A DNA stretch of 64,000 nt from Ardenticatenia bacterium (lineage in GTDB: Bacteria; Chloroflexota; Anaerolineae; Ardenticatenales; Ardenticatenaceae), in assembly GCA_030949995.1 (NCBI GenBank), contig JAUZRY010000086.1, forward strand, positions 1 to 64,000, given 5' to 3'. Position numbers and translations under genes: made by a program. Of this stretch, positions 5,693-13,470 are shown piece by piece; position 1 is the stretch's first letter, and each line of letters starts with the position of its first letter. The notes under the pieces were generated by a model. That model was not told where the DNA came from and searched no databases. It saw nothing but the letters and a program-made list of their open reading frames with translations.

Positions 5693-6589
5693 ATGAACCG
5701 TGTAGCGCTCTTTCTCTCAGCCGTTCTCACCTCGTTTGTGCTGGTGATTGCCGGTGCCCTCATCGGCAACATGCGTGCCTCGCCGGCCGATTCGGCTGCC
5801 GAGGCACCGGTCTCCACCCAGGTGGTGAGCCAACCAGCCGACTCCGCCGAGGTCACGTCTGTTGGCTCGCACGATCAGGGTGCCTCAGGAGCGGCTACTG
5901 CGGAGGCTGTGCCCTCCCAACCGCCGGCCCCGGACATGGCCGAGGTGGTGAACTCCTTCAACGAGGCCACCGTGGACGCCGTGGAGAACATCATGCAACA
6001 GCGCGAGTCCCAATACCAGGCACTGTTGGATCAGGCCAACCGCCAGTTGCAACAGGCCTACGCCAAACAGGAGGAGCTAGCCCGTATTGCCCAGGAGGCC
6101 CAGGCCGCTCAGGCTCAGGCTGAGCAGTTGGCCCAACAACTGGCCGAACAGCTCGCTGCCGTCCAAGCTGCCCAACAAGCCCAGGCGGCTGCACAGGCCC
6201 AAGCCCAAGCCCAACAAGCCCAAAACCAGACGGCCAGCCGCCCAGCGGCCCAGCCCCCGGCACCGACCTATGCCGTGTCCCCCGATCAGGCCGTTCAGAT
6301 CGCCTTGTCGGCTGCTAATGGGGGCACGCTCACCAAACAGCCCGAGCTGGTGCTCTTCGAGGGGACGCCAGCCTACGAGGTGGGCTTTGACCGTGGAATG
6401 ATTTATGTGGATGCCAACACTGGTGCTATACTGTACAATGGCACAGTGCCTCCTCCTCCGCCCCCCCAACAGACACGCTACGACGATGATGACGACGAGT
6501 ATGAAGAGCGTGAAGATGACGACGATGAATATCGGGAGCGTGATGACGACGACGATCACGATGACGAGCGTGAGGATGACGACGATTAA
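5693..6589 (+). CDS. Secreted or anchored PepSY-domain protein with coiled coil and Asp-rich tail
   Basis: This 298-residue protein begins with a hydrophobic N-terminus (signal peptide or anchor, residues about 5-25). A Ser/Ala/Pro linker follows, then a Gln/Ala-rich coiled-coil stretch (about 95-180) and a PepSY-like domain (about 195-255: SPDQAVQIALSAA, then YEVGF and YVDANTGAILYNG). The tail of about 40 residues is almost only Asp, Glu, Arg and His (DDDDDEYEEREDDDD). The start is ATG 5693 with a GGGAGGAA ribosome site. Such acidic tails commonly bind calcium or other cations or mineral surfaces. The gene lies directly after a calcium ATPase and before ApbE and a ferric-reductase-like protein. 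Function is unknown; a cation-binding extracytoplasmic partner of the redox proteins is inference. Confidence 0.75.
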   Translation: MNRVALFLSAVLTSFVLVIAGALIGNMRASPADSAAEAPVSTQVVSQPADSAEVTSVGSHDQGASGAATAEAVPSQPPAPDMAEVVNSFNEATVDAVENIMQQRESQYQALLDQANRQLQQAYAKQEELARIAQEAQAAQAQAEQLAQQLAEQLAAVQAAQQAQAAAQAQAQAQQAQNQTASRPAAQPPAPTYAVSPDQAVQIALSAANGGTLTKQPELVLFEGTPAYEVGFDRGMIYVDANTGAILYNGTVPPPPPPQQTRYDDDDDEYEEREDDDDEYRERDDDDDHDDEREDDDD

Positions 6590-6751
6590 CGGGGGAGGCC
6601 AGGCCCGGTGAGCTCCGGGAGTCCTGGAACTCGCCGGGCAGTCGGCCTTCTCGATGGCTCGGCGCCGCGCCGCACGGCATGACACACGTGTATCGGCAGA
6701 CGCCGAACGACCGGACCTGAACACGCACCTAGGGAATTTCAGGGCACACAT

Positions 6752-7642
6752 ATGCTCAAGGAGATACTCGGCACGATACGGGCGTTGTTGTTGGGAGTGC
6801 TGGTAGGTGTGGTCTTTGTCGTCGGCTTGACTACCGGCACTCGACTGGAGGGCGTTTCCGGAATCCGTGCCGACCGAACGCCGACGCCCGACCTCGTGGC
6901 CACTATCTCTGCCCTTGAGGCCCGGATCGAAGAGCTTGTCCAGGAAGCGCCCGGCGGGGCGATGAGAGCCTCCACACCAACATCGCCGCGCCCACCAACG
7001 CCCACGTTGCGCGTGGTCACCCGGGGCACCGTCGTGGGCACGTGGGGAAGTGTCGAGAAGGACCGGGCCGTCGAGATCGCGCGGGAGTACGTGGGCGGCG
7101 GTGAGGTAATCGCTGTTACCCAGGAGAAGAAGTACGGCACCGTGGTCTTGGAGGTGGAGTTCCGCTACGGCAGTGAGGTCTACGTGGACGTGCAGAGTGG
7201 TCGTGTGCTCTACGCCGAGATCTCGCCAGCCGACCGCCAGGCGGGGACCAACACCACGTCCACGCCGACACCGGTGCCAACGTCTACGCCCACGTTGGTG
7301 CCCCCGACGGCTACGCCGCTGCCCACGGCCACGCTGGCGCCGACGGCCACACCTACGCCAGAACCGGTGCCCCTCGCGACTGGCGACGAGGATGAACAGG
7401 GCGAGATGCGTGATGAGGAAGCTCAACAGCAACCTTCGGCAGAGGAAGCCGAAGAAGATGAACAAGCTGTGTCACCTCCTGCCCCTCAAGAACATGAGGA
7501 GGATGATAGCCCTCATCAGGATGAGAGCCGATCCGACAATGACGATCAGGATGACCGCGACGACGGTACAGACGATGATGACGATAAAGACGATAATAAT
7601 AAAGATGACGATGATGACGATGAGCACGAGGATGACGATTAG
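6752..7642 (+). CDS. Second PepSY-domain surface protein with Thr-Pro stalk and Asp-rich tail
   Basis: This 296-residue protein has the same plan as the preceding gene. An N-terminal membrane segment (ALLLGVLVGVVFVVGL) is followed by a short helical region and a PepSY-like domain (about 105-160: KDRAVEIAREYVGGGEVIAV, VYVDVQSGRVLYAEI). A Thr-Pro repeat stalk (TPTPVPTSTPT) leads to a Glu-rich and then Asp-rich C-terminus (DDDDDKDDNNKDDDDDDEHE). The two proteins share architecture rather than close sequence, so they look like old paralogues. The 162-bp gap before it holds no gene. It probably belongs to the same transcription unit as the Pro-rich protein and apbE that follow. Confidence 0.72.
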   Translation: MLKEILGTIRALLLGVLVGVVFVVGLTTGTRLEGVSGIRADRTPTPDLVATISALEARIEELVQEAPGGAMRASTPTSPRPPTPTLRVVTRGTVVGTWGSVEKDRAVEIAREYVGGGEVIAVTQEKKYGTVVLEVEFRYGSEVYVDVQSGRVLYAEISPADRQAGTNTTSTPTPVPTSTPTLVPPTATPLPTATLAPTATPTPEPVPLATGDEDEQGEMRDEEAQQQPSAEEAEEDEQAVSPPAPQEHEEDDSPHQDESRSDNDDQDDRDDGTDDDDDKDDNNKDDDDDDEHEDDD

Positions 7643-7686
7643 TGCCTTGACATAACAAGGCAACGTGGCAAGGCTGGAGGACGATC

Positions 7687-8166
7687 ATGGCAACGCCCAA
7701 GAGAAAGCAACAGAAGCGCAAGTCCCCTGCGGGCATTTCAGACAGCCTGAAGACGCTGATAACCGTGGCCTCGGTGGCGAGCACATTGACTGGGTGGGGG
7801 ATCTTGGCCCGCACGGACGGGAGCACAGCTCAGGCAGCAGCGGAGCCTGTGCCCACCCTGCCGCCCCCAACGCCAACCTACACGGCTACGCCAACGCCGA
7901 TCGCAACGCCAACGCCCGACTTGGCTGCCCTGCAAGCCCAGTGGCAGCAGGAGATCGAGCAACTGGTCAACACCTTGCCCCCGATCCCCACCCTGGTCCC
8001 GGCGCCAGACGTGCCCGACGTGCAGGTCAGGCCTCCGGCCCAGATCACCGTGCCGACCATTCAGGTGCCGCCCCCGCCACCCCCGGCACCAGCAGCAGCA
8101 CCGGCTAGCAGTGGAGGGGGGGGGCTCCGCCCCCACCACCGCCTCAACAGGAACTGCGGTCAGTGA
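7687..8166 (+). CDS. Small anchored Pro-rich protein, C-terminal frame uncertain
   Basis: It starts with a Lys/Arg-rich cytoplasmic stretch and a single hydrophobic segment (TLITVASVASTLTGWGIL). A Thr-Pro region, a short helix (LAALQAQWQQEIEQLVNTL) and Pro-rich sequence follow. Then comes a run of nine G (8116-8124), a likely miscount. With ten G the frame continues as APPPPPPQQ... to a TAG at 8214-8216; with eight it continues as an Ala-rich tail to 8221. Either gives 176-177 residues instead of 159. No domain is recognised. Its place between the PepSY genes and apbE suggests a scaffold of the same surface complex. Confidence 0.6.
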   Translation: MATPKRKQQKRKSPAGISDSLKTLITVASVASTLTGWGILARTDGSTAQAAAEPVPTLPPPTPTYTATPTPIATPTPDLAALQAQWQQEIEQLVNTLPPIPTLVPAPDVPDVQVRPPAQITVPTIQVPPPPPPAPAAAPASSGGGGLRPHHRLNRNCGQ

Positions 8167-8239
8167 GCGCGCCGCCCCCGCCGCCCCCGCCGCCCAGAAC
8201 GAGTTCGTCGCGGTAGGCTGAGGACCAGGAGGCATGGCC

Positions 8240-9190
8240 ATGTTGCTGCTCCACTTTCGTGCCATGGGATGTCAGATGGAAGCTCGCCTGGACTCGGATG
8301 TGCCGGGCGCACAGATGCTGTTGGCCTGGATTCCCGTCTGGTTCGAGGTCTGGGAGAGCATTTTGAGCCGTTTTCGCGACGACAGCGAGCTCTCGCGGCT
8401 CAACGCCCAAGCAGGCCGTGGGCCGGTGAAAGTCTCCACAGTGCTTTGGGAGGTGCTTCGCGAGGCAATGGAGGCAGCCGAGATGAGCGATGGCTTGGTG
8501 GTCCCTACCATATTGCCCGCTCTGCTCGCCTCTGGGTACACTTGGTCCTTCGAGCTCATGGCCAGCCGACTGTGGGACGAGCAGGCATCCATGGCCTATG
8601 CCCCGGTGACCACGGTGGGAGCATGGCGGTCTATTGTGTTGGACGAGCGCCGGCGCACTGTGGCGCTGCCGGCTGGCGTGCAGCTTGACTTGGGTGGTGT
8701 GGCCAAAGGGTGGGCCGCGGAACAAGCAGCCCGCAAGCTGGCCCACCACGCGCCAGCCCTGGTGAACGCCGGAGGGGATATTGCCGTCAGTGGCCCTCAA
8801 CGAGATGGTTCCCCTTGGCGAGTAGCCGTGGCCGATCCTTTCCACCCGGACCGCGATGTGGCCATCATCAAGCTGCACCGTGGTGCTGTGGCTACATCAG
8901 GGCGCGATTACCGGCGTTGGCAATGGGGAATGGAGTGGAAGCACCACATCATTGATCCGCGCCGTGGGGCTCCGGCCGAGACCGATTTGGTGAGCGTGAC
9001 GGCCATCGCCGAACGGGCCACACGCGCTGAGACGGCTGCCAAGACAGTCTTGATCTTAGGCACAGATGAGGGGATGCGCTGGCTCACACATCATGCTGAC
9101 GTGGCCGCCTTACTGGTACGAGAGGACGGTGATATACTCACCACCGCTACGTGGTCGAAGTACATGGTGGACGAGGAAGGAGTGCGCTGA
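8240..9190 (+). CDS. apbE: FAD:protein FMN transferase (ApbE family)
   Basis: The protein has about 316 residues with ApbE landmarks: MGCQMEA near the N-terminus, RFRDDSELSRLNA, DLGGVAKGWAAEQAA, VNAGGDIAVSG, ATSGRDYRRW and HHIIDPRRGAPAETDLVSVTAI. ApbE enzymes use FAD to attach FMN covalently to a Thr/Ser of extracytoplasmic flavoproteins. ATG 8240 was preferred to ATG 8234 because the AGGAGG ribosome site at 8227-8232 would touch the earlier start. No obvious N-terminal lipobox is seen. No protein with the usual S/T-GAT-S/T flavinylation motif is visible next door, so the substrate is either encoded elsewhere or atypical. It is followed after one base by the cyclase gene. Confidence 0.88.
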   Translation: MLLLHFRAMGCQMEARLDSDVPGAQMLLAWIPVWFEVWESILSRFRDDSELSRLNAQAGRGPVKVSTVLWEVLREAMEAAEMSDGLVVPTILPALLASGYTWSFELMASRLWDEQASMAYAPVTTVGAWRSIVLDERRRTVALPAGVQLDLGGVAKGWAAEQAARKLAHHAPALVNAGGDIAVSGPQRDGSPWRVAVADPFHPDRDVAIIKLHRGAVATSGRDYRRWQWGMEWKHHIIDPRRGAPAETDLVSVTAIAERATRAETAAKTVLILGTDEGMRWLTHHADVAALLVREDGDILTTATWSKYMVDEEGVR

Positions 9191-9191
9191 A

Positions 9192-10433
9192 ATGCAGCCT
9201 ACAACCTTTCGTCAACGTTTTTGGGACGCTCTGTTGACCAACGCCTTGCACTATCGACGCTCAACATGTTGATCGAGTGGCTGGTCATTTCCCACACAGC
9301 CTTTTTTTTCCGGGTGGACCCCTATTTGATTATCGGAGCCGCCGTGGTTCAGGCTGTCGTGTTGGCATTGCCGGCTGTCGAAGGGCGGGCATTGCGGGTG
9401 TTCGTAGCCAACTTCTCGTCGGGAGTAGCCGTCTACACGGCTGTGGAAATGATGATAGAAGGCATGGAGTTCTGGGAGAAGCCAAACCACGTGCTCTATT
9501 GGGTCTACAGCCTGGCCATTGGCCTCTTTGCCGCCTGGGGGACGCGTGTGCCCGAATGCCGCGTGGCCATCTTCGGCGCCTACCTGACCCGAGCCTCGGC
9601 CCTGTTGGCTGTCTACACCGTTGGTGAGTTCTATCTGAGTGACAACGTGAGCCTTCTCCACTGGATCCAAGATGCTACTCACACCTTCATTGGCCTGGCT
9701 GTGCCCCCTCCTGGGGGTTGTCGGGGCTCTGGCCGATGTGAATGCCAAGCGGTATATGCTCCTGCTTCAGGACGCCAACCGCCGCCTACGGACATACGCT
9801 GAGTGGTCGTTCGGCAAGCGGCTCTTCCGGGAACTTCTCAACAATCCCCAGGCAGGGAATCCTCGCCGGCAACATCGAACCATATTCTTCAGCGATGTGC
9901 GCGGATTCACCGCTTGGAGCGAGAAGCGTACGCCTGAGGCTGTCATGGAGATCCTTCAGGCATGGTACTTGGCGGCCGAGAAGGTGTGGGAGCAGTGTGA
10001 GCCGGTGCATTACAAGTTCACTGCCGACGAAGTCATGGCCGTCTTTGCGAGTGTGGAGGAGGCGGCACGGGCGGCCATCCTGTTCCACAGTGCCAGCCGG
10101 TCCATCTGGGAGCCCCACGGCCTTCACGTCGGCATCGGCATCCACTGGGGAGCTGTGGTGGAAGGTCTGATCGGTGGGCGCGAGGTGAAATTTTATGACG
10201 TGATCGGCGACACGGTGAACACGGCTCAGCGCATAGAGAAAGGAGCGAGCAAGGGGCAAATCCTCATCTCTGAGAAAGCATACCGTCACCTCCCGCCAGA
10301 AAAGTTTGAGGCGGGTCCCACAATGCGTATTTCCGTGAAGGACAAAGCTCACTTGGAAGTCCGGGTTCTGCACACGCGGACAGAACAGGAGACTGTGGCA
10401 GAATACATGGAGGCACAGGAGGTATCAGCATGA
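9192..10433 (+). CDS. Membrane-anchored class III adenylate/guanylate cyclase (two indels)
   Basis: The repaired gene gives about 413 residues. The N-terminal half has five or six hydrophobic helices (WLVISHTAFFF, YLIIGAAVVQAVVLAL, ASALLAVYTVGEF and others). The C-terminal half is a class III cyclase catalytic domain: IFFSDVRGFTAWSEK (metal Asp), FTADEVMAVFAS, LHVGIGIHWGAVVEGLIGG and FYDVIGDTVNTAQRIE. The start at ATG 9192 has a good GGAAGGAG site but needs one missing base near 9260 to join the membrane frame. The second indel is an extra C in 9704-9708. If the first repair is wrong, the start would be TTG 9221 or ATG 9266. It overlaps the next gene by ATGA. Substrate (ATP or GTP) is not settled by inspection. 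Confidence 0.85.
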
Positions 10434-11242
10434 CCACAGCTCAAGGATTTCAGGATTTTGACCAATATCCGCCGGCCGTCGCGTTTCAGACCGTGATGTT
10501 GATGCTGGTGGCTGCAGCCGTGGGCGCCATTGCTGCCGTCTTCGTGGTGCCGACTTGGCTGCCCGGGCTCTCGGCCTCGCTGCTCGGCGAGAGCCCTAAG
10601 GTGTACTGGTACTTAGCCCGCTCCAGCGGAGTGACAGCCTACGTGCTCTTGTGGTTTTCCATGGCCTTTGGCGTGATGATGACCAACAAGATGGCCCGAG
10701 TGTGGCCCGGGGGGCCGACGGCATTTGACTTGCACCAGTACACCAGCCTGCTGGGGTTGACCTTTGCCCTCTTTCATGCCATCATCCTCTTGGGCGACAC
10801 GTACATCGAAGCGGGGCTAACCAACGTGTTGACGCCCTTCGGTTACACAGGATACCGCCCTCTGTGGGTGGGCATTGGGCAGGTCGCCTTTTACCTGATG
10901 GCCGTGATCGCGTTCAGCTTCTACGTGCGCCAGCTCATTGGCCGTCGCATGTGGCGACTCCTCCACTATCTCAGCTTTATCACCTTTGTGGCGGCGTTGG
11001 GCCATGGCATCATGGCCGGCACGGACACGTCCTCGGCGTTCATGCAAGGGCTCTACTGGACCACAGGAGGCGGGTTGCTGTTCCTGACGCTCTACCGGAT
11101 GCTGGTGGGCGTGTGGGGATGGCGCCAAAAGGCCGCCCGCCGTAAGCGTAAGGCACACGCGGTGCCCTCAGCCAACGTGCGAGCGCGCTCGGTGCCTCCC
11201 AGTGAGCCCCAGGATCAGGCCAAGGCCGGGGCCCAAGGATAA
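10430..11242 (+). CDS. Ferric-reductase-like transmembrane haem protein
   Basis: This 270-residue integral membrane protein has about six helices and the pattern of the ferric reductase-like (MsrQ/YedZ/NOX) domain. Histidines occur in the right helices: DLHQYTSLLGLTFALFHAIILL, RMWRLLHYLSF and ALGHGIMAG. It probably binds two b-type haems and passes electrons across the membrane. It ends with a basic Lys/Arg-rich tail. Start ATG 10430 overlaps the cyclase stop (ATGA), so translation is coupled. Together with ApbE upstream it suggests a flavin/haem electron path to the cell exterior; the final acceptor is unknown. Confidence 0.83.
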   Translation: MTTAQGFQDFDQYPPAVAFQTVMLMLVAAAVGAIAAVFVVPTWLPGLSASLLGESPKVYWYLARSSGVTAYVLLWFSMAFGVMMTNKMARVWPGGPTAFDLHQYTSLLGLTFALFHAIILLGDTYIEAGLTNVLTPFGYTGYRPLWVGIGQVAFYLMAVIAFSFYVRQLIGRRMWRLLHYLSFITFVAALGHGIMAGTDTSSAFMQGLYWTTGGGLLFLTLYRMLVGVWGWRQKAARRKRKAHAVPSANVRARSVPPSEPQDQAKAGAQG

Positions 11243-11265
11243 CTAGGGCGGAGGATGTGAGCACC

Positions 11266-12030
11266 ATGACCCAAGTTGTTCAGGCCACCATCTTGCTCAT
11301 CGAAGACAATCCCGAAATCGCTGAACCCCTTGCCTTTGGCCTGCACCAGGAGGGGTATCGGGTTCTCCACGCACACACTGGGGAAGAAGGGCTCCACCTG
11401 GCCCGAATACACCAGCCAGACCTCATCCTGCTCGACATTATGCTCCCGGGGATGGATGGCTTTCACGTCTGCCGTACTCTGCGGGCGGAGTCCAGTGTGC
11501 CCATTCTGATGCTCACGGCCCGTTCCCAGGAGCTTGACCGGGTGATGGGCCTTGAGCTGGGGGCTGATGATTATATCGTCAAGCCCTTCAGCTTCCGAGA
11601 GCTGGTGGCGCGCGTGCGGGCCATGCTGCGCCGGCGTGAACTGGATCGCACTGAGTGGCAGGCGGATGGCACAGGGGAGGACGAACAGGCACGCTCCTCC
11701 CATCAGCTTCACCTGCATGACCTGCGTCTCGACATGCAAGCTCGCCTGGTCTGGAAGGGCGAAGACCAGTTGGCCCTTTCAGGCCGGGAGTTCGACTTGT
11801 TGGCCCACCTGATGAGCCATGCCGGCGAAGCATTGCATCGCCAGGCGATTTTGGACGCTGTGTGGGGTGAGGAGTGGGTGGGTGATCCCCGCACGCTTGA
11901 TGTGCACATTCACTGGTTGCGCGAGAAATTGGGCGATGATCCGGCACATCCGCGCTATATTCAAACCGTTCGGGGCTACGGCTACCGGTTTTTGGCGCCG
12001 TCTCAGTCCCAGCATGTTCAGGAGAAGTAA
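11266..12030 (+). CDS. OmpR/PhoB-family response regulator
   Basis: This is a regulator of about 254 residues. The receiver has LLIEDN, the phospho-Asp in LILLDIMLPGMDG and DDYIVKPFSF. A 25-residue acidic linker leads to a winged helix ending QTVRGYGYRFLAP. ATG 11266 is preferred because the GGAGG at 11250-11254 is too close to the GTG at 11257. It overlaps the following kinase gene by 17 bp and follows the redox/cyclase genes by 23 bp, so it is likely in their operon and may control it. Confidence 0.92.
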   Translation: MTQVVQATILLIEDNPEIAEPLAFGLHQEGYRVLHAHTGEEGLHLARIHQPDLILLDIMLPGMDGFHVCRTLRAESSVPILMLTARSQELDRVMGLELGADDYIVKPFSFRELVARVRAMLRRRELDRTEWQADGTGEDEQARSSHQLHLHDLRLDMQARLVWKGEDQLALSGREFDLLAHLMSHAGEALHRQAILDAVWGEEWVGDPRTLDVHIHWLREKLGDDPAHPRYIQTVRGYGYRFLAPSQSQHVQEK

Positions 12031-13470
12031 ACGCTTCTGGACGGCTCCTAAGCTCCACGTGCTCCTCCTTTGGCCCTATCTGGTCTTGGCGACTGTGGGT
12101 CTGGCTGTTTTGGTCCTGTGGGCTGGCCTCATCATTCGCACCCTAATGATCGAAAAGGTCGAGCACGAGCTTGAAATTGAGGCGCTTCTCATTGCCAATG
12201 CTCTGCGCGACGCGCTGGAAAGCTGGATGGAGGAGGAACTGCCAGCCGGGCGCCCCATTGGCAACTTGGTGCTCTCATACGCGGAGGAGACAAATGCCCG
12301 CATTATCGTGACCTTGCCCGACGGGTCCATTGTCTTCAGCTCCGACCCCGACACCCCTTTGCGCGTGCTTCCGGCCAGTGTTGAGTTGCGGGCAGCTCTG
12401 GCCCTCACAGAACAACACAACATTCGCCCTGACGATTTCGGCTCCGGGGAGCTACGCCTCTACACGGCTGCCCCTGTGGTTGAAGGGAATGAGGTGTTGG
12501 GGTTGGTGCAGCTCTCCGTGCCCTATGAGCCTATTCAGCAAGCGATTCTTGTGCCATGTGGCCAGCGACCGGTCTTCTCGTCAGCGCCGGATTGATAACG
12601 GCCATTGGGTTTGCCAGCGTGATGTTAGCCAGATGGCTTTCAGCCCCCATTCGCCACTTGACCGAGATGGCCGACCGCATGGCAGAGGGTGACTTGGAGG
12701 CGCCCATCCGACCCCACGGCCCCCATGAGATTCGCCGGCTGGCTGTGGCCTTCGAGACCATGGCACGCCGTGTGCGGGAGATGTTGGTCCAACAGCGCCA
12801 GTTCGTGGACAACGCCGCCCACGAGCTGCGCTCTCCTCTGGCGAGCATCCGGCTGCGCGTTGACATGTTGGCACGCCTGGCCAACGGCCAAGCACAGGAC
12901 AAGGAGCGTTTCGAGCGGTACCTTCGAGAGACACAGGTACAACTGATTGGCCTTGAGCACCTGGTGAACGATTTGCTCCTGCTCTCCTCTGTGGAACAGG
13001 AACATCTGCCAACAGAGCCGTTGGACTTGGCGCCACTCCTCTACGAGCTGGCGGATGAAATGGCCCCCTTGATGAGGGCCAAAGCCCTCCACGTGCGGAT
13101 GGAGGTGCCTCCCCATTTGCCCACCGTGCAGGCTAACCGCACATACTTGCGCGTGGCCGTGCGCAATGTGTTGGACAACGCTATCAAGTACACGCCTGAG
13201 GGAGGAGAGGTGGTGCTGCGAGCCTATGCTACTGCCAATGAGGTGATTGTCGAAGTGGAGGACACGGGTCCGGGCATTCCCCCTGATGAGGTGGAGCATA
13301 TCTTTGACCGCTTCTACCGCAGCCAGACAGCACGGAGCTCCCGGACGAGCGGTGTGGGATTAGGCTTAGCCCTCGTCCACACGATTGTGACCAACCATGG
13401 GGGACGGGTGGACGTGGAGAGTTGGCCCGGAAAGGGGACCTGTTTCCGTCTCCACTTGCCTACCTCATAA
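12014..13470 (+). CDS. Sensor histidine kinase with HAMP domain (one frameshift)
   Basis: The repaired gene gives about 485 residues. It has TM1 (LVLATVGLAVLVLWAGLII), an extracytoplasmic loop of about 130 residues, TM2 (MWPATGLLVSAGLITAIGF), a HAMP linker, the H-box FVDNAAHELRSPLASIR, the N-box NVLDNAIKYT, and G boxes DTGPGIPPDE and GVGLGLALV. Two track ORFs join across the CC at 12554-12555, where one base appears to be missing exactly at the second membrane helix. Start ATG 12014 lies inside the regulator gene. It pairs with the regulator just upstream. Confidence 0.9.

Follow-up and report, generated by a model that had tools for sequence, protein, structure and literature searches.

Gene clusters that pair ApbE with a ferric-reductase-like membrane protein whose haem-ligand histidines are conserved have been described as MsrQ-like flavinylation systems (Meheust et al. 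2021, PMC8238504). The underlying survey retained only genes with a signal peptide or a lipidation site and does not name Chloroflexi in its main text; in about 4% of the genomes in its data set ApbE occurs without any known substrate, and these substrates remain to be identified (PMC8238504). The PepSY_TM flavinylation systems and FoxB also link the PepSY name to ApbE, through membrane haem proteins of the PF03929 and PF16357 types (PMC8238504, PMC11334425). Other PepSY proteins bind metals: according to a review, UipA binds uranyl and iron (PMC8963506), and LanPepSY of Methylobacillus flagellatus binds lanthanides and calcium (PMC11845868). In Vibrio cholerae a PepSY protein, DbfQ, is encoded together with a two-component system (DbfQRS; PMC12714742). 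ApbE beside PF01794 proteins, PepSY metal binders and PepSY/two-component pairs have all been described already. In the open-access literature we found no description of the gene set considered below (an acidic-tailed protein, a small protein ending in TRSSR, ApbE and a ferric-reductase-like protein), nor anything on the cluster under acidic-tailed PepSY proteins or flavinylation in Chloroflexi.

The window analyzed here is the whole stretch of 64,000 nucleotides from contig JAUZRY010000086.1 of an Ardenticatenia bacterium (Ardenticatenaceae). A contiguous series of genes on the + strand spans positions 5693 to 13470.

5693..6589, + strand: PepSY1; N-terminal membrane anchor (residues 3-28), Gln/Ala coiled coil (82-179), PepSY domain (193-251), Pro linker, acidic tail ending in DDDD
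6479..6586, + strand: Asp/Glu tail of PepSY1, by composition
6752..7642, + strand: PepSY2; N-terminal anchor, Thr/Pro stalk, PepSY domain (residues 100-158), second Thr/Pro stalk, acidic tail ending in DDD
7376..7639, + strand: Asp/Glu-rich tail of PepSY2, by composition
7687..8216, + strand: small N-anchored Pro-rich protein; frame broken near 8115-8124 (G run)
8234..9190, + strand: ApbE, FAD:protein FMN transferase family (PF02424, E 5e-58)
9221..10433, + strand: membrane domain plus adenylate/guanylate cyclase domain (PF00211); a frameshift near 9700 splits the gene
10430..11242, + strand: ferric-reductase-like (MsrQ-like) membrane protein (PF01794); His 102, 116, 179 and 192; no cytosolic NAD domain
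11257..12030, + strand: OmpR-type response regulator, by profile match
11936..13470, + strand: histidine kinase; a frameshift near 12550 splits the gene

The original prediction was that two different PepSY proteins at 6440-7642 both end in almost purely Asp/Glu tails. The proteins and tails are confirmed: PF03413 matches residues 195-247 of PepSY1 (E 5.7e-9, 36.6 bits) and residues 103-154 of PepSY2 (E 1.3e-6, 29 bits), the curated gathering cut-off being 24, and Asp and Glu constitute 80% and 72% of the last 25 residues, respectively. The interval itself needs correction, as it covers only the tail of PepSY1 together with PepSY2, the full features being 5693-6589 and 6752-7642. The linkers had been described as a Gln/Ala coiled coil in one protein and a Thr-Pro stalk in the other; Thr-Pro stretches are indeed present in PepSY2, on both sides of the PepSY domain, but the Gln/Ala coiled coil of PepSY1 precedes its PepSY domain, and the linker to the tail is merely VPPPPPPQQTRY. 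In the window PF03413 is the sole PepSY type detected by Pfam, PF03929 and PF16357 (PepSY_TM) not being found.

Since both proteins have a single hydrophobic N-terminal anchor behind basic residues, they are predicted to be single-pass proteins of the N-in/C-out topology, with the tails outside the cell. In the AlphaFold model of PepSY1 (built with 20 relatives), a 98-residue helix and the PepSY domain are predicted with confidence and the tail is disordered, with pLDDT above 90 over most of the coiled coil and the PepSY domain and below 50 over most of the tail. In the Foldseek search with this model the best match was YpmB, a PepSY protein (probability 1.00, E 0.017), and the top matches were YpmB and a Clostridium lipoprotein (probability 1.00, E 0.017 to 0.095); the PepSY domain used as a query against PDB sequences yielded no significant match. 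Among the relatives compared, an orthologue of PepSY2 is known so far only within the family to which the window belongs.

We compared the locus with two sets of relatives, the first including 60 stretches around ferric-reductase-like matches in the class Anaerolineae and the PepSY1 loci, and the second, 20 further stretches mainly from other families of Chloroflexota. This comparison shows a recurring set of genes, encoding an acidic-tailed protein, a small TRSSR-ended protein, ApbE, a ferric-reductase-like membrane protein with four histidines and, often, a two-component system. The core set is present in the window, in the class Anaerolineae and in further families, covering at least two classes of Chloroflexota. 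In loci L109, L111, L112 and L115 the gene order is as in the window; DDGDEHEDEKEKDDHDD is an example of their tails, and the small protein of L109 ends in RTRSSR.

As in the MsrQ-like systems, a PF01794-type membrane protein is clustered with ApbE, although its PF01794 match in the window is borderline (E 1.6e-5, 25.4 bits against a cut-off of 28); the four histidines (102, 116, 179, 192) are invariant in 71 relatives, and the protein lacks an NAD domain, similarly to the quinol-using MsrQ type. In contrast to the described clusters (PMC8238504), there is no FMN_bind protein, its place being taken by the Pro-rich small protein ending in TRSSR; the PF03413 PepSY/acidic-tail proteins are additional; and ApbE has no signal peptide. 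We class the cluster as a variant of the MsrQ-like flavinylation systems that lacks their typical FMN_bind protein. It also differs from the PepSY_TM systems and FoxB, with which it shares the name and the link to ApbE, as PF03413 here resides on a single-pass protein.

The likeness to the PepSY metal binders is partial as well. UipA (PMC8963506) is similarly a single-pass membrane PepSY protein with an acidic metal-binding surface and two-component genes upstream, but it carries two PepSY domains in tandem and binds metal through a folded, negatively charged face, whereas here a single PepSY domain is followed by a long disordered acidic tail and the partners are ApbE and the ferric-reductase-like protein. 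LanPepSY is likewise an exported PepSY protein, binding multivalent cations via Asp/Glu; unlike PepSY1 and PepSY2, it is periplasmic, has two PepSY domains and is tied to the lanthanide response (PMC11845868). DbfQ differs in being small and secreted, and the part of its description consulted makes no mention of an acidic tail or electron-transfer genes (PMC12714742).

The acidic tails themselves are retained. Among PepSY1-type relatives from the first set, selected with the PepSY profile as the sole criterion (n = 37), the last residue is Asp in 36 and the last two are Asp-Asp in 29, the net tail charge ranging from -1 to -37; for control ORFs of at least 85 aa from the Anaerolineae loci (n = 2472), an equally acidic end was observed in 6 and a DD end in 13. 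In the second set the acidity threshold was passed by 14 of 20 PepSY proteins vs. none of 660 other ORFs. Among the first-set loci with both ApbE and the ferric-reductase-like gene and with enough upstream sequence (n = 50), the slot before apbE holds an anchored acid-ended protein in 31 and a DD-ended one in 34; as these slot proteins were selected by acidity or by PepSY, the 37 PepSY-picked proteins provide the fair, non-circular figure. Where the PepSY domains are less than about 70% identical, the tail identity is 0.35-0.42 vs. 0.31-0.36 for shuffled tails (first set). Judging by these alignments, the tail composition is kept, while the order of residues drifts to near the shuffle level. 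Parallel retention of the tails had been taken as a sign of function, and this argument holds, the tails being neither missing from the orthologues nor a repeat restricted to this strain. Recent strain-specific repeat expansion was rejected as their origin: the codons are mixed (PepSY1: 9 GAT, 11 GAC, 3 GAA, 5 GAG; PepSY2: 18 GAT, 12 GAC, 7 GAA, 9 GAG), the repeats detected by TRF are all degenerate (66-77% matches in the long arrays), and the tail is kept in relatives.

The slot protein of at least nine loci combines an anchor, a coiled coil and an acidic tail, and no PepSY domain was detected in it (three proteins were checked with Pfam, the rest by profile search and reading); hence, as far as such searches detect PepSY, the constant feature of these loci is the tail rather than the domain. 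The tails vary in other respects, being His-rich in genomes G004, G009 and G027, short and weakly acidic in L046, L054, L055 and L078, and Lys-rich in L042, L062 and L064. Acidic ends also occur in other proteins: in Haem_bd cytochromes beside the ferric-reductase-like gene (L076:1164-1637, L103:8817-9272) and in lipoprotein-like repeat proteins near the cluster (L063:1390-2880, for which DUF5666 repeats were shown, and L068:11785-13848). In L047, where the cluster is absent, an RsgI-like protein (8315-9718) contains two PepSY domains and ends in a long D/H tail, so acidic PepSY tails are found outside the cluster too.

The small protein has an equally characteristic end. Among 76 loci (about L037-L128), it exactly fits [TS]xSS[RK] in 53, with TRSSR in 31 loci, SRSSR in eight, and close variants besides; five more loci have the same end plus one extra residue, and nine have related Ser/Thr-rich ends, e.g. 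RTRGS. Of 6136 ORFs, 62 end in [TS]xSS[RK], and 54 of these occupy the slot before ApbE; three of the remaining eight are immediate neighbors of the ferric-reductase-like gene (L078, L091, L127). In L043 one such ORF is situated between two PepSY genes of a cluster. For two of the TRSSR-ended ORFs beside the ferric-reductase-like gene (L091:7717-8163, L127:5478-5777) no apbE was detected in the stretch. In the window the conserved end is hidden by the frameshift in the G run: an intact relative ends in LRSVSAPPPPPPPPPRTSSSR, and the other frame of the window gene shows LRSVSAPPPPPPPPRTSSSR-stop, with the conserved end RTSSSR-stop.

ApbE of the window matches PF02424 (E 5e-58) and by inspection has no signal peptide. 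The DxxxT residue pair of ApbE plays a role in magnesium binding. It is replaced by ExxxK in the window and in most relatives, and by D with L in f16-type loci, so ApbE activity is not certain; a second ApbE of L056 (769-1515), outside the cluster, retains the canonical pattern. The cluster ApbE is the only one in the window genome. An FMN_bind protein (PF04205) encoded elsewhere was considered as its substrate, and none was found in this genome (86% complete); FMN_bind is also absent from 36 of 40 sampled genomes carrying the cluster. A canonical acceptor site in the PepSY or ferric-reductase-like proteins was rejected, as the D-x-x-[ST]-G-A-[ST] motif is present in none of 61 and none of 88 of them, respectively.

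In [TS]xSS[RK] the Ser/Thr residues are spaced as in [ST]GA[ST], the leading Asp being absent. According to a review of ApbE, seven residues at a protein terminus are enough for a motif to serve as a flavin tag, and the Asp is of little importance (PMC12052999). Given this spacing, the sufficiency of terminal tags and the absence of FMN_bind, we propose the small protein as the ApbE substrate; the TRSSR tag may be a new flavin cofactor attachment site. It is plausible, if still short of probable, that small proteins with this end constitute a new class of ApbE substrates, flavinylated on a C-terminal Ser/Thr tag without a flavin-binding domain by a signal-less ExxxK subfamily of ApbE, the acidic tail of the partner serving as a dedicated dock or a metal-presenting arm. 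The cluster thereby offers a specific candidate for the orphan ApbE problem.

The original prediction named calcium buffering, mineral nucleation and metal capture outside the cell as possible functions, in keeping with an adjacent calcium ATPase. Metal capture as such is plausible, given the predicted N-in/C-out topology and metal binding by UipA and LanPepSY, but the link to calcium is not upheld. Only the window genome and the sister genome G002 have a same-strand Ca-type P-ATPase gene (PMR1/SERCA-like, scoring just below curated cut-offs) upstream of PepSY1. This ATPase gene was not found beside PepSY1 in G001, G004 and G005, and the remaining loci examined together gave a single distant P-type ATPase match. 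On gene order, we thus reject a partnership with the calcium ATPase. The conserved neighbors, that is, ApbE, the ferric-reductase-like protein and the TRSSR-ended protein, point to redox chemistry instead of calcium. Among seven loci listed by eye, no conserved extra gene for iron transport was seen.

The cluster probably moves electrons across the cell membrane, and we infer the functions of the acidic tail and the TRSSR tag in this context. Our preferred reading, held tentatively and at somewhat less than an even chance, is that an MsrQ-like system transfers electrons across the membrane and that the acidic-tailed proteins are its extracytoplasmic components. As the ferric-reductase-like protein lacks an NAD domain, the di-haem membrane protein would draw electrons from quinol and hand them outward. 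With FMN placed by ApbE on a Ser/Thr of the tag, the small protein would become a mobile carrier of covalently bound flavin, tethered by its Pro-rich part; with ApbE devoid of a signal peptide and the tag predicted outside, flavinylation would need to take place ahead of export. The disordered acidic, often His-containing tail of the anchored neighbor would bind multivalent cations, most likely Fe(III), near the flavin/haem exit, its reach being set by the coiled coil or the Thr-Pro stalk, and selection would act on charge and terminal carboxylates and not on sequence. The cultured relative Ardenticatena maritima is an iron reducer, which favors this reading; on the other hand, its electron exchange with electrodes was ascribed to multihaem cytochromes (PMC5808234), the conserved set includes no iron gene, and the weakly acidic or Lys-rich tails fit metal chelation less well. 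If the small protein is indeed such a new ApbE substrate, this would be a Chloroflexota-wide electron-transfer system explaining part of the genomes with orphan apbE, and acidic PepSY proteins, described so far chiefly as stand-alone metal binders or as partners of sensors, would gain a defined redox context.

The response regulator/kinase pair, found in the window operon and beside most relatives, in the operon or divergent, suggests another role, in which the PepSY protein would control the neighboring kinase as DbfQ controls DbfS in Vibrio cholerae, the tail would report the metal or cation level, and the ApbE/ferric-reductase-like pair would be the regulated output. By analogy, this is possible but rather doubtful. 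PepSY genes are located close to two-component genes more than 60 times as often as chance would predict, DbfQ binds the DbfS sensor domain (PMC12714742), and UipRS is encoded upstream of uipA (PMC8963506). In DbfQRS-like modules the PepSY gene is within four genes of the two-component genes; in the window the kinase and regulator genes are in the same gene run as PepSY, 5-7 genes downstream, and in other families they are divergent and lie next to the PepSY gene (e.g. L112, L119). However, L057, L058 and L081 have PepSY and the tail, with two-component genes absent from the stretch examined; and f16-type loci retain the tail and the two-component genes with no PepSY detected. Slightly less likely still is electrostatic docking, in which the acidic tail would recruit the flavin carrier by binding its basic TRSSR tag (or would bind the ferric-reductase-like protein), metal binding being incidental: the two oppositely charged C-termini are encoded by adjacent genes and are both conserved to the last residue, and even Lys-containing tails finish in D or DD, but the tail charge varies from -1 to -37 whereas the tag is nearly constant.

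The two remaining explanations fare worse. A role of the tails in buffering calcium or nucleating minerals together with the adjacent ATPase agrees with calcium binding by LanPepSY (PMC11845868) and with the gene order in the window and G002; given the loci without this ATPase, we consider it very improbable. Neutral extension, with GAY/GAR repeats expanding and persisting without function, would account for the degenerate 30-base repeats and the fast drift of these low-complexity tails, but charge and terminal DD are shared across many GTDB families and nearly absent from other ORFs on the same contigs, making it about as improbable.

Relative to the sister genome G002, four genes within approximately 10 kb are frameshifted: the ATPase (about 4420), the small protein (8115-8124), the cyclase (9700) and the kinase (12550). 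Such a concentration in neighboring genes suggests assembly errors rather than gene decay. The cyclase gene is unbroken in L040 and L037. A membrane-anchored cyclase adjoins the ferric-reductase-like gene in Ardenticatenaceae (window, 9221-10433) and also in L109 (1940-3187).
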